NCBI GenBank assembly: GCA_005878485.1
Contig: VBMG01000038.1
Location: 1-49,609 of the forward strand
Length of the DNA stretch: 49,609 nt
Source: Methanobacteriota archaeon
GTDB taxonomy: Archaea > Thermoplasmatota > Thermoplasmata > RBG-16-68-12
Direction: 5' to 3'
The notes below the pieces were generated by a model, which saw nothing but the letters and a program-made list of their open reading frames with translations, was not told where the DNA came from and ran no database searches. This document shows, piece after piece, positions 2,209-44,622 of the stretch (position 1 is its first letter; each line of letters starts with the position of its first letter). Both the position numbers and the translations under genes were made by a program.

Positions 2209-2358
2209 GGGATAGCGGCTGAGGCCGCGATTCAACGATCCCACTCATCCGAATCTTCCTTTCCTGCCTCCAAGAAATCGGGAGGCTGCGCGGCCCTGCG
2301 GGGCGAGAGTTGTCCGGATAGCGGGACGTAAGTCGCAGACGTCGGCGCATCCCGGACA
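2209..2358 (+). ncRNA. Structured leader or independent small RNA upstream of dnaG
   Basis: About 150 nt between the predicted transcription start and dnaG can fold into three hairpins by eye. Hairpin 1 (2209-2242) has outer GGGAT/ATCCC and inner GCGGC/GCCGC closed by TGAG. Hairpin 2 (2266-2286) is GCCTCC/GGAGGC. Hairpin 3 (2311-2358) has TGTCCGGAT pairing with ATCCCGGACA around one bulge, plus an inner GACGT/ACGTC, and ends 8 nt before the ATG. I could not match it to RNase P RNA, SRP RNA, 5S rRNA or box C/D RNA motifs. Most genes here look leaderless, so a long folded leader is unusual. It may be a cis-regulatory leader or a separate RNA. Confidence 0.4.
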
Positions 2359-2366
2359 GTGCGAGA

Positions 2367-3674
2367 ATGAACATCGATCCGAGTACAACGAAGTACCTCA
2401 TCCAGGCCCGCCTCGAGGCGGAAGGGATCGTCGAGAAGCCCGACGTGGTCGGGGCCGTGTTCGGCCAGACCGAGGGGCTGCTGGGCGAGGAACTGGACCT
2501 GAGGGATTTGCAGAAGAGCGGGCGCATCGGCCGAATCGAAGTCGATGTGCAAAGCAAGAAAGGGCGAAGCGAAGGCACGATCCTAATTCCTTCCTCGCTG
2601 GACCAAGTCGAGACATCGATCCTTGCGGCGGCCCTCGAGACGATCGACCGTGTCGGGCCGTGCAAGGCGACGATCAAGGTCGACAAGGTCGAGGACACGC
2701 GGGTGACGAAGCGGAACAAGATCATCGAGCGAGCCCGCGCCCTCCTGTCGTCCATGGTCGAGGAGTCGAAGACCTCCGGGTCCGACCTGCTCGACGAGGT
2801 GCGCCAGAGCGTCCAGGTGTCGGAGATTGTCTCCTTCGGGACGGAGCGGCTCCCCGCGGGACCGAACGTCACGGACAGCGACGCGATCATCATCGTCGAA
2901 GGCCGACAAGACGTCCTGAATCTCCTGCGATCCGGCATCAAGAACGCGATTGCGGTCGAAGGCACGAACGTGCCCAAGACGATCCAAGAGCTGTCGAAGG
3001 AACGCGCGCTGACGGCGTTCGTTGACGGAGACCGCGGGGGAGACCTGATCCTGAAGGAGCTCCTCCAGGTCGCCGAAGTCGACTTCATCGCCCGCGCCCC
3101 GCGCGGCAAGGAGGTCGAGGAGCTGACGCAGAAGCAGATCATGAAGAGCCTGCGAAACAAGATCCCCGCGGACCAGTACGTGGAGATGTACGGCATCTCG
3201 GGCCAGGTGTACAAGGCCGAGTCCGAGTTCCCCGAGCCGAAGCCGTCGGGAGGACCGCAAGGCCGTCCGGAGCCCCGGTCCGAACCTCGTCCCGAGCCGC
3301 GCCCCGAGTTCCGGGAACCGCGGGAGGCTCCTGTGGAGCGCGCACCGGCTCCGCTGTCGCCCACCACGAAGGTCCTCAACCCGAAACTGGAGAAGTACCG
3401 CGACATGCTGGTCCAGCTCGGCGGGTCCTCGACGGCGCGTCTCCTCGATGAAGGGGATGGCGTCGTCACGGAGGTCCCGGTGCGGGAGCTCGTGGACACG
3501 CTCAAGACCGCGAAGCAGACCCGAGCGGTCGTCTTCGACGGGATCATCACGCAACGGATCCTGGACATTGCCGCGGAGATGAACATGCACTCCGTCGTCG
3601 GCACGAAGATGGGCACGATCACGAAGCAGCCCGCCGGCGTCGAAGTCTGGACCCGGAGCGACTTGGCTCCTTGA
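2367..3674 (+). CDS. dnaG: Archaeal DnaG-type primase/exosome protein
   Basis: The 435-residue archaeal DnaG, which can make short RNA primers and is also a poly(A)-binding subunit of the archaeal exosome. The N-terminus is the archaeal-specific domain (about 1-165; MNIDPSTTKYLIQARLEAEG). The Toprim core follows, with IIIVEGRQDVLNLL (about 172-185) and AFVDGDRGGDLILKEL (about 213-228) supplying the metal-binding Glu and Asp residues. A Pro/Glu/Arg-rich low-complexity linker (about 285-335) leads to the C-terminal domain (about 340-435). The start MNIDPSTTKY is typical. The stop overlaps the TTG of the Lon-like ATPase (TTGA), so the two are probably co-translated. Confidence 0.96.
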   Translation: MNIDPSTTKYLIQARLEAEGIVEKPDVVGAVFGQTEGLLGEELDLRDLQKSGRIGRIEVDVQSKKGRSEGTILIPSSLDQVETSILAAALETIDRVGPCKATIKVDKVEDTRVTKRNKIIERARALLSSMVEESKTSGSDLLDEVRQSVQVSEIVSFGTERLPAGPNVTDSDAIIIVEGRQDVLNLLRSGIKNAIAVEGTNVPKTIQELSKERALTAFVDGDRGGDLILKELLQVAEVDFIARAPRGKEVEELTQKQIMKSLRNKIPADQYVEMYGISGQVYKAESEFPEPKPSGGPQGRPEPRSEPRPEPRPEFREPREAPVERAPAPLSPTTKVLNPKLEKYRDMLVQLGGSSTARLLDEGDGVVTEVPVRELVDTLKTAKQTRAVVFDGIITQRILDIAAEMNMHSVVGTKMGTITKQPAGVEVWTRSDLAP

Positions 3675-5218
3675 GCGGGGTGGGCCGTATCGCGCGGACG
3701 AAGCAGGTCACGGCGGACGAGGGGTTCGCCTTCGACGACTTCGACTCCACCACGGAGATCGCGATCCCGGACGATCCGCTGAAGCGGGTCGTCGGCCAGG
3801 ACGAGGCCGTCGCGCTCGCGCGCATCGCGGCGAACCAGCGGCGGCATTTCCTCCTGGTCGGCCCGCCCGGGACGGGCAAGTCGATGATCGCCCAGGCGCT
3901 CTCCCTCCATCTTCCCGCGGTGACGGAGGAGATCCGCGTCGTCCACAATCCGGAGAATCCGGAACGGCCTCTCATCGAAGTCAAGCAGCGGGACGAAGTC
4001 CTGCAGGAACGGAACCGGCTGGCCGGGGCCGAGGGGGACTTGATCGACCCGAAAGAAGCGCCGATCAACGTCGCGGAGCGGCTCGGGTACAAGTGCGTCC
4101 ATTGCGGGACGTACTCGTCGCCGACCGACCGCATGTGCCCGAAGTGCGGGCGACCGAAGGCGGCGTCCCAGGCGAACGTCGGGAATCCGTTCGGCGACCT
4201 GCTCGGCGGCATCTTCGAAGTCACGTTCGCACAGCTCCAGGGGCGGGATCGGGTGACCACGACCCGACAGCAGTTCGGCAAAGAAGAGGTCGTGGTGTAC
4301 GAGCGAGCGGGCGACATGATCCGGGTCCTCGACCAGAAGGCGCTCGAGAAGCGACGCGAGGTCGAGAAGGAGAGCCCGCGAAAAGTCCTCGTCCCAATCG
4401 CGCGAAGGCCGTTCGTGCTCGCGACCGGGGCGAGCGAGACCGAGCTCCTCGGGGACGTGCGGCACGACCCGTACGGCGGCCATCCGCAGCTGGGCACCCA
4501 GCCGTACGATCGCGTCGTCGCCGGGGCGATCCACGAGGCCCACCAAGGGGTCCTGTTCATCGACGAGCTCCCGCAGCTGGGCTTCCTCCAGCGGTTCATC
4601 TTGACCGCGATGCAAGAGAAGCGGTTCCCGATCTCCGGGAGGAATCCGCAGAGCGCGGGCGCGAGCGTGAAGGTCGAGAGCGTCCCGTGCGACTTCATCT
4701 TCGTCGGCGCGTGCAACATCCAGGACCTCCCGCACATCTTGTCGCCGCTGCGTTCGCGGATCACGGGTGCCGGGTACGAGGTGCTCGTCGAGACGACGAT
4801 GGCGGACTCCGACGTGAACCGCGCGAAGCTCGTGCAGTTCGTCGCGCAGGAGATTGCGGTCGACAAGCGGATTCCGCCCGCGACGCGCGATGCGGTCGGG
4901 GTCGTGATCGACGAGGCCCGACGGCGTGCGAAGTCCTTGGACAACAAGGACAAGGCGCTGAGCCTGCGCCTCCGGGAACTCGGGGGCCTCATCCGATCCG
5001 CGGGCGACATCGCGGTCACCGAGGAGTCGAAGTTCATCGAGGCGGACCACGTCCGGCGAGCGGTCAAGGTGTCCCGGTCGATCGAGGACCAGATTCGCGA
5101 GCGATACGGATCGTACACGGCGGGCGTCGGGACCGACCTGTCTCCGGCGCAGCGCGAGGCGTCGCCGTACCACTACTGGAACGAGCACAAGGCGGACGAC
5201 GTCCAGGGCTACCAGTGA
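3671..5218 (+). CDS. Lon-like AAA+ ATPase lacking the protease domain, with a zinc-ribbon insert
   Basis: A 515-residue AAA+ protein of the archaeal LonB type. It shows the LonB-like entry VVGQDEAVALARIAANQRR, Walker A GPPGTGKS (64-71), Walker B GVLFIDEL (293-300), a SPLRSRITG arginine-finger/sensor stretch, and a C-terminal AAA lid ending at SRSIEDQIRERYG. In LonB the serine-lysine protease domain follows; here the protein ends about 35 residues later and no protease frame follows in the next DNA. Between Walker A and B, where LonB has its membrane segment, there is a four-cysteine zinc ribbon (C142, C145, C156, C159). It is probably a soluble ATP-dependent remodelling factor. The TTG 3671 start overlaps the dnaG stop; GTG 3680 is the alternative. 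Confidence 0.85.
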   Translation: MSGVGRIARTKQVTADEGFAFDDFDSTTEIAIPDDPLKRVVGQDEAVALARIAANQRRHFLLVGPPGTGKSMIAQALSLHLPAVTEEIRVVHNPENPERPLIEVKQRDEVLQERNRLAGAEGDLIDPKEAPINVAERLGYKCVHCGTYSSPTDRMCPKCGRPKAASQANVGNPFGDLLGGIFEVTFAQLQGRDRVTTTRQQFGKEEVVVYERAGDMIRVLDQKALEKRREVEKESPRKVLVPIARRPFVLATGASETELLGDVRHDPYGGHPQLGTQPYDRVVAGAIHEAHQGVLFIDELPQLGFLQRFILTAMQEKRFPISGRNPQSAGASVKVESVPCDFIFVGACNIQDLPHILSPLRSRITGAGYEVLVETTMADSDVNRAKLVQFVAQEIAVDKRIPPATRDAVGVVIDEARRRAKSLDNKDKALSLRLRELGGLIRSAGDIAVTEESKFIEADHVRRAVKVSRSIEDQIRERYGSYTAGVGTDLSPAQREASPYHYWNEHKADDVQGYQ

Positions 5219-42925: not shown

Positions 42926-44596
42926 TCACATCCCCATGCCGGGCATTCCGCCCATGCCACCCATGCCGCCCATACCGCCGCCGTGGCCATGCTCGCCGCC
43001 ACCCGGCGGGGGCGGAGGCGACTTCTTCGACGCGATCACGTCGTCGATCCGGAGGATCATGCTCGCGACTTCGGCCGCGGAATCGATCTCCTGGGTCTTC
43101 ACCCGGAGCGGCTCCACGATGTTCGCCTTGAGCATGTCCATCGGCTCGCCCGTGGCGACGTTGACGCCCATCGACTTGCTGTTTTTCTTCCCGTGCTCGG
43201 CGCGCAGCTTGATGAGCACATCGATCGGGTCGAGACCCGCGTTCTGTCCGAGGGTCCGAGGGATGACTTCGAGTGCCTTCGCGAACGCCTCGATTGCGAG
43301 CTGTTCCCGTCCGCCGACCGTCGCGGCGTAATTTTCCAACGCGAGCGACAGTTCGATTTCCGCGGAGCCGCCGCCTGCGATCGCCTTGCCGTCCTCGATC
43401 GCGGCCGAGACGACTCGCAGGGCGTCGTGCAGGATCCGCTCGACCTCGTCCACCACGTGCTCCGTGCCTCCGCGGACGAGGACTGAGACCGCCCGCGCCT
43501 TCTTGTTCCCGGTGACGAACGTCATGTCGTCCGTCCCGATCTTGCGCTCTTCGACAAGATCAGCGTTGCCGAGTTGCTTCTGCGCGAGGTCATCGAGATT
43601 CGTGACGATCTGGGCACCCGTCGCCTTTGCCAGCTTCTTCATGTCGCTCTCTTTCACCCGGCGGACCGCGTAGATCCCTTCTTTCGCGAGGTAGTGCTGG
43701 GCGACGTCGTCGATTCCTTTCTGGCAGAGGACCACGTTCGCGCCGGAGGCTTTGATCTTCTCGACCATCGTCCGCAGGCTCTTCTCTTCCTCGTCGAGGA
43801 ACATCTGGAGCTTTGCAGGGTCTCGGATGCGGATCTCCTCGTTGACTTCCGTTTTCTTGACCTCGAGGGCCCGGTTGATGAGCGCGATTTTCGCGTCGCG
43901 CACGAACTTCGGCATCCGCGGATGCACGCGCTCCTTGTCGAGGACCACGCCATCGATGAGCGTGGTGTCCTTGAGGTTCCCGCCGTGCTTCTTCTGGACG
44001 AGGATGTTGTCAACGTCTGCGCGGAGTTCGCCTGCGATTTCTTCGACGATCGCTTGAACCGCTTCCACCGCGATGTCCGCGAGGAAATCTGCGTTCGCAC
44101 CGACGCTGCGCCCAGACATCGCCGTCCGCGCGATGGATCGCAGCGTGTCCTTGTCGGTCCGCTTCACATCGAAGGCGAGCGCGCGAAGCCGTCGGACGGA
44201 CTCGGTGGCGGCCATCCGGTATCCGTTGACGATGATCGTGGGATGGACCTCCTGTTCAATCAGGCTCTCCGCCTCCTTCAGCAGCTCCCCCGCGAGGACG
44301 ACCGCGCTCGTCGTGCCATCGCCGACCTCGTCGTCCTGGGTCTTCGCGACTTCCACGAGCATCTTCGCGGTCGGGTGCTCGATCTCGATCTCTTTGAGGA
44401 TCGTCACCCCGTCATTCGTGATCGTCACGTCCCCGAGGCTGTCCACGAGCATCTTGTCCATGCCCTTCGGGCCGAGCGTCGACTTGACTGCATCGGCCAC
44501 GGCGCGAGCCGCTGCGATGTTGTTGAACACCGCGCCTTTCCCCTTCTCGCGCTCCGTCCCTTCCTTCAATATGATGATTTGCTGACCGCCCATCAT
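42926..44596 (-). CDS. ths: Thermosome (group II chaperonin) subunit
   Basis: A 556-residue ATP-dependent chaperonin subunit. It has the phosphate-binding region [12 protein letters not shown], the nucleotide motif [15 protein letters not shown], the apical domain with the helical protrusion lid (about 240-280), and the catalytic Asp region. The C-terminus ends in repeated GGM, facing the folding chamber. The start is ATG 44596 ([10 protein letters not shown]) just after a TATA box. Only one subunit gene is in the window. Confidence 0.97.
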
Positions 44597-44622
44597 GATA
44601 ATCCCGCCGGTCTATGAGAGGA

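Follow-up and report, generated by a model that had tools for sequence, protein, structure and literature searches.

In archaea, the closest described system is that of L7Ae, a protein that regulates mRNAs by way of kink-turns in their leaders and that provides a precedent for feedback control (PMC5539422). In E. coli, structured leaders control the RNase genes rnc and pnp, with operators that are cleaved by RNase III (PMC5371410). Every sequenced archaeon possesses DnaG, whether it has an exosome or not; DnaG is a proven RNA-binding protein, which strongly binds a 3′ 16S rRNA transcript as well as 5S rRNA and lets the exosome tail rRNA (PMC4227792). Moreover, the crosslinks of the Sulfolobus exosome concentrate near the 5′ ends of mRNAs (PMC7667871). 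No description of a dnaG leader was found in the open-access literature, an absence that is weak evidence.

The dnaG gene considered here lies in a stretch of DNA of 49,609 nucleotides, referred to as the window, which comes from an uncultivated archaeon of the Thermoplasmata lineage. On the basis of its protein-family match, the identity of the gene is unambiguous. The TATA box at 2179-2186 predicts a transcription start near 2209, where GGGATAGCGG begins about 26 nt past the centre of the box, and, ahead of dnaG, some 158 nt of leader. The features of the locus are the following:

2179-2186, + strand: TATA box TTTAAATA of the dnaG promoter, recognised in the sequence and kept in same-genus genomes at a near-fixed spacing to GGGA.
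2207-2366, + strand: predicted dnaG leader RNA, with a start predicted near 2209 and its end at the dnaG ATG, defined by DNA conservation, covariance model R1 and the long-range fold.
2207-2213, + strand: 5′ strand (CCGGGAU) of the predicted rod-closing helix; its GGGAU can instead form hairpin 1 with 2238-2242 in the nascent RNA.
2231-2271, + strand: G-poor stretch with UCA motifs (UCAA at 2232-2235, UCAU at 2245-2248), noted for the strand-specific UCAY enrichment over 108 regions.
2238-2251, + strand: central strand AUCCCACUCAUCCG, with hardly any variation among genus members (alignment A1), predicted to pair with 2209-2213 (early hairpin) or 2315-2326 (rod).
2266-2286, + strand: inner hairpin P3, GCCUCC/GGAGGC, from the predicted fold and pair counts.
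2293-2304, + strand: inner hairpin P4, GCCC-UGCG-GGGC, almost invariant in the genus.
2314-2326, + strand: 3′ copy of the 5′ motif, CCGGAUAGCGGGA, predicted rod partner of 2238-2251, with counterparts in other members of the family and some members of the order.
2349-2355, + strand: 3′ strand (AUCCCGG) of the predicted rod-closing helix, 11 nt before the ATG; U-rich at this place (GCUGUUUUUC-like) in many AT-rich relatives.
2367-3674, + strand: dnaG, encoding archaeal DnaG, an exosome subunit (NCBIfam NF003108, 555 bits, cut-off 300).

As for the genes nearby, a small protein of the PRK04017 hypothetical-protein group (1685-2161, + strand; below the NCBIfam cut-offs and with no Pfam match) is encoded immediately upstream of the dnaG promoter, and homologous sequence occupies the same position in same-genus genomes. 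Adjoining dnaG on the other side, a LonB-like AAA protein (3671-5218, + strand) has a TIGR00764 match below the cut-off and a weak zinc-ribbon match; no Pfam match was found for a protease domain, and the product is possibly a protease-less LonB variant. Farther away, a GINS-like replication protein with weak Gins23/Gins51 C-terminal matches is encoded divergently from the dnaG region (849-1544, − strand), and the 5′ end of an archaeal 23S rRNA gene is truncated at the window edge (1-381, − strand).

The original prediction had proposed that a TATA box places the start at the first of three GC-rich hairpins, the third of which ends 8 nt before the ATG. The sequence elements behind this proposal are all where they had been placed, namely the TATA box, GGGATAGCGG, TGTCCGGAT (2311-2319) and ATCCCGGACA (2349-2358), the last of which, the 3′ strand of the supposed third hairpin, indeed stops at 2358, 8 nt short of the ATG at 2367. 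The three independent hairpins, in contrast, were not recovered, as the minimum-energy fold is a single rod and the probability of hairpin 1 in the ensemble is about zero. In this predicted fold, bases 2207-2213 close the rod by pairing with 2349-2355, 11 nt ahead of the ATG. The plain folding energy of the interval 2209-2366 (z -1.3, with 18 of 200 shuffles equally good) is no better than chance and alone provides no evidence; therefore, long-range pairing was used as the measure. When four additional 5′ bases are included and the ATG is left out, the leader folds with a z of -2.2, and 36 pairs connect its first and last thirds, as compared to 9.2 in shuffles. The view that this leader is exceptional was supported in the same terms, since dnaG ranks first of the 36 predicted genes of the window in long-range 5′/3′ pairing (z 2.1; mean of the set -0.08).

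Folding of the 14 sequences of the window's family, f1, all modelled in full, leads to the same picture. In each of them the 5′ GGG finds its partner within the last 35 nt (P 0.91-1.00), the pair probability of hairpin 1 is 0.00-0.04 at equilibrium, and the rod is 3-13 kcal/mol better than the best fold with a span of up to 80 nt. When growing lengths of the RNA are folded, however, hairpin 1 appears at 45 nt and is rearranged by about 125 nt, when the 3′ copy of the motif appears. This behaviour gives a sense to the CCGGATAGCGG-like repeat of the original prediction, which is real and consists of the near-copies CCGGGATAGCGG (2207-2218) and CCGGATAGCGGG (2314-2325). Both copies are complementary to one near-invariant strand, AUCCCACUCAUCCG (2238-2251), and the repeat suggests, according to these folding models, an early hairpin that would be displaced by the later copy.

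Within the genus, the leader is conserved. A DNA search found it in 14 of 22 genomes of the family (the window's own and 13 others of the same genus), with E-values down to 2e-47 outside the window's genome, and wherever the contig extends far enough it directly precedes dnaG. The TATA box, its spacing to GGGA and the length of the leader (157-166 nt including the ATG) are retained among these relatives. The covariance model R1, built from 15 family leaders and searched in 37 genomes of the order, finds one real copy per f1 genome, always at dnaG; two weak antisense matches are the dnaG-leader locus read backwards, as expected for a near-palindromic rod. Outside f1, R1 finds nothing convincing in the 37 genomes, neither divergent homologues nor other copies. 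Pair counts within the genus amount to weak evidence: 79% of cells are paired, as opposed to 35-52% when the partners are slid, yet double-change pairs number only 8 (5.0 ± 1.6 in shuffles), and a model of local hairpins scores about as well as the rod. RNAalifold and these pair counts were in fact tried as a means of choosing between local hairpins and the rod and were set aside, the genus being too conserved and GC-rich for this purpose.

The comparison was extended to the dnaG upstream regions of 15 further genomes of the order, to 40 across the class and to a sample of the phylum. All members of the order possess a TATA-like box about 130-193 nt upstream of the start codon. In 25 of the 29 order-level sequences (f1 plus the 15 others), the observed long-range pairing is reached by at most 3% of shuffles, and in the other four by at most 13%; the weakest pairing among the order members is that of G022, G023, G028 and G031. 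The strands that close the rod differ in sequence, being for example GAAGAAUAGC-GUCA with UGAC-a-GCUAUUUUUC in G033 and GGGAU-AGC-AAGCGA with UCGCUU-GUCCC in G024. Comparison shows that throughout the order dnaG is preceded by a leader of comparable size and position, the 5′ bases of which are predicted to be able to pair just upstream of the ribosome-binding site, and a conserved structured dnaG leader is very probably a common property of the window's order.

Beyond the order, closing strands can be drawn in families f8 (GAAGAACAGC with GCUGUUUUUC), f13 (UAGAAGAAUAGCG with CGCUGUUUUUCUA), f27 (GAUUAGGAAAAAUA with UAUUUUUCCUAAUU) and f41 (UGAGAAAUAGCACU with AGUGCUAUUUUUCA). A table of pair types in such curated helices was not taken as proof, because the helices had been chosen for their complementarity and the table is biased accordingly; a composition-controlled test was used in its place. 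In this alignment-free partner-swap test, the 5′ half of a genome's leader is combined with its own 3′ half or with that of another family, over 49 families. The advantage of own halves is about 7.0 kcal/mol (permutation SD 0.8) and dinucleotide-shuffled 3′ halves account for about 2.8, so that about 4 kcal/mol lie beyond base composition. In addition, over 108 dnaG upstream regions of the phylum, taken at a fixed 215 nt with no start site assumed, the mean long-range z is +0.96 and the mean folding-energy z -1.49, against -0.08 for both in the 36 window genes. A comparison of the single best long-range helix with shuffles is strong in AT-rich families and powerless in GC-rich ones. The original prediction had named a lack of conserved structure or compensatory changes in related genomes as its refutation; the swap test counters this at the phylum level, while covariation inside the genus is weak. 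As shown by this comparison, the two strands of the predicted rod changed together across many families of the phylum, and a structured leader upstream of dnaG is supported from genus to phylum. Since R1 has no convincing match outside f1, homology between families is based on position and shared features; it is probable that the same leader element is present across much of the phylum. The rod was not seen in several families, e.g. f11, f14, f42 and f43, and some families are devoid of the rod, of the UCAY clusters described below, or of both.

The second shared feature is the stretch that follows the 5′ strand of the rod, which is G-poor and rich in UCAC and UCAU. In the 108 regions, the largest UCAY cluster per 32 nt has a mean of 2.46, as opposed to 1.10 in dinucleotide shuffles, while the window genes, with 1.08, are at the shuffled level. 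With the last 60 nt left out, clusters of at least three UCAY occur in 54 of the 108 regions in sense and in 1 of the 108 in antisense, a strand bias that suggests a motif of the RNA and not of the DNA. The enriched 6-mers include AUCACG, UAUCAC, UCACAU and UCAUCA, with UGUUUU and UUUUUC also among the top. The idea that UCAY mimics the 3′ end of 16S rRNA (AUCACC) was considered, but the enriched 6-mers differ from AUCACC and it is kept as an idea only. Near rrp41, in the exosome operon, UCAY clusters are not notable.

Several individual loci complement this survey. In a Thermoplasmata record from Guaymas (L047, 683-897), a very long, near-perfect closing helix is predicted between GGGUGGCAUGUCAUCCCUCC and GGAGGGUGACAUGCUGUUCU, enclosing a run of UCAC/UCAU, and this leader is a good candidate for experiments. 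In two loci of family f22 (L110 and L152), UCAU repeats are found not upstream but right beside the ribosome-binding site (AUAUCAUUAUCAUU..AAAAAGGUGAUAUGG) and could pair with GGUGAUAU. In three loci of Aenigmatarchaeota, belonging to DPANN (L050, L051 and L052), dnaG is likewise preceded by a TATA-like box, by an extended upstream region and by UCAU repeats, and the element may, as a lead only, reach beyond the phylum. Within the window, a cluster of three TCAY that resembles the dnaG motif is located near 44598 (− strand), at the start of a predicted gene (42929-44599, − strand).

The reading that we prefer, to which we assign a probability of about 0.42, takes region 2207-2366 to be the 5′ leader of the dnaG mRNA and to act in cis as a conserved structured RNA under feedback control by DnaG or the exosome complex. 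The conserved structured leader is well supported, and we infer autoregulation: the RNA biology of DnaG and the exosome, together with the precedents of L7Ae and of rnc and pnp, favours DnaG or a DnaG-exosome complex as the agent of feedback, an assignment that must be taken as tentative. In such a circuit, the first 45 nt would fold into a small hairpin while the RNA is still being transcribed, and the appearance of the 3′ copy of the motif would then let the RNA rearrange into a closed rod beside the start codon. The UCAY stretch would be a putative protein-binding site, and its likeliest binder the complex of the gene product itself, through DnaG or another cap subunit of the exosome such as Rrp4. 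When present in excess over rRNA and other targets, the complex would bind the leader and the translation or the stability of the dnaG mRNA would fall. The net effect would be a negative feedback loop, by analogy with archaeal L7Ae and with the E. coli genes rnc and pnp. The exosome core has PNPase among its relatives, and Rrp41, a component of this core, is encoded in all 37 genomes of the order. Against this reading stand the weak covariation inside the genus, the lack of convincing R1 matches outside f1 and the families in which the rod was not seen. In addition, the measured preference of DnaG is for A-rich RNA and rRNA, not for UCAY, and the window's own leader has a single UCAY and one UCAA, most other members of the genus having three UCAY. 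A more ambitious version, rather unlikely as a whole, would see in the element a phylum-wide, undescribed archaeal leader by which the exosome sets the level of DnaG via a UCAY-reading cap subunit, with a nascent hairpin-to-rod switch beside the start codon.

The same two features could also act with no feedback at all, the structure and the UCAY stretch protecting the mRNA from decay or aiding ribosome loading in a constitutive manner, as a closed 5′ rod and a G-poor stretch could serve as a stabiliser or as a ribosome standby site. A generic stabiliser, however, would not call for such deep conservation specifically at a gene that encodes an RNA-binding subunit of the exosome, and the other window genes have neither feature, which makes this explanation improbable.

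The main structural rival is attenuation at the U-rich strand, whereby the closed rod, followed by a U-tract or containing one, would halt RNA polymerase before dnaG under some condition, and a second fold or a bound factor would allow read-through. Many AT-rich families do have a U-rich 3′ strand (GCUGUUUUUC, UAUUUUUCC) that stops some 14-50 nt short of the ATG, UGUUUU and UUUUUC belong to the 6-mers with the strongest enrichment, and the f1 leader has two mutually exclusive predicted folds. What weakens attenuation is that the helix is kept in the window's family although its 3′ strand (AUCCCGG) lacks a U-tract; moreover, the U-tracts are short and paired with the 5′ strand, and archaeal termination is usually hairpin-independent. 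We hold it to be improbable.

A closing stem, alternative pairings and a site adjoining the ribosome-binding site would also befit a riboswitch that senses a metabolite or an ion and exposes or blocks the ribosome-binding site of dnaG. The search of Rfam (release 15) for which the original prediction had called gave no gathering-level match in the leader, the only hits being below threshold (E 1.2 and 2.2; models of C/D sRNAs), and no riboswitch match was found in the leaders even at permissive Rfam thresholds; one fluoride riboswitch match of 20.6 bits lies more than 400 nt upstream of its dnaG start. Furthermore, the detected copies precede only dnaG and not the genes of a pathway, and, in contrast to a ligand pocket, the interior is highly variable from one family to the next although the UCAY repeats are retained. 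A sensing function is accordingly very unlikely. Little more can be said for an independent small non-coding RNA whose gene lies by chance before dnaG, despite its own TATA box and a rod with paired, closed ends that, together with the U-rich 3′ strand of relatives, recalls stable small RNAs: in f1 the element always stays ahead of dnaG and no further copy could be detected, inspection of 2209-2366 reveals no second TATA box for dnaG, and the element ends so near the ribosome-binding site that no room is left for dnaG to have a promoter of its own, so that the chance of this explanation is slim. Finally, a leader of the kink-turn type bound by L7Ae, which does act on archaeal mRNAs in this way (PMC5539422), or another known archaeal RNA motif is next to negligible as an explanation, given that patterns resembling a kink-turn, a motif with tandem GA pairs and a 3-nt bulge, are not enriched (0.48 per leader versus 0.60 in shuffles) and are missing in several relatives, and that Rfam offers no match.

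If feedback by DnaG or the exosome complex is the correct reading, archaea may control their exosome machinery through the messenger RNA of dnaG itself. The conserved leader represents a concrete RNA target with a candidate recognition motif, the UCAY repeats, and offers a testable circuit for the adjustment of RNA-decay capacity; it would enlarge, by a sizeable class of structured RNA, the small set of cis-regulatory RNAs known in archaea. What characterises autoregulatory leaders, a conserved and gene-specific structured 5′ leader, was found here by computation. The dnaG leader resembles that of L7Ae in being a structured leader at the gene of an archaeal RNA-binding protein that normally acts on stable RNAs (PMC5539422). 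Unlike the L7Ae leader, with its kink-turn and known feedback, it would combine a long rod with a UCAY stretch, and its feedback is proposed. It differs from pnp and rnc in that DnaG is a cap subunit of the exosome rather than the nuclease; with its predicted rod it would resemble them in carrying an extended duplex in the 5′ UTR of a gene of the RNA-decay machinery (PMC5371410).
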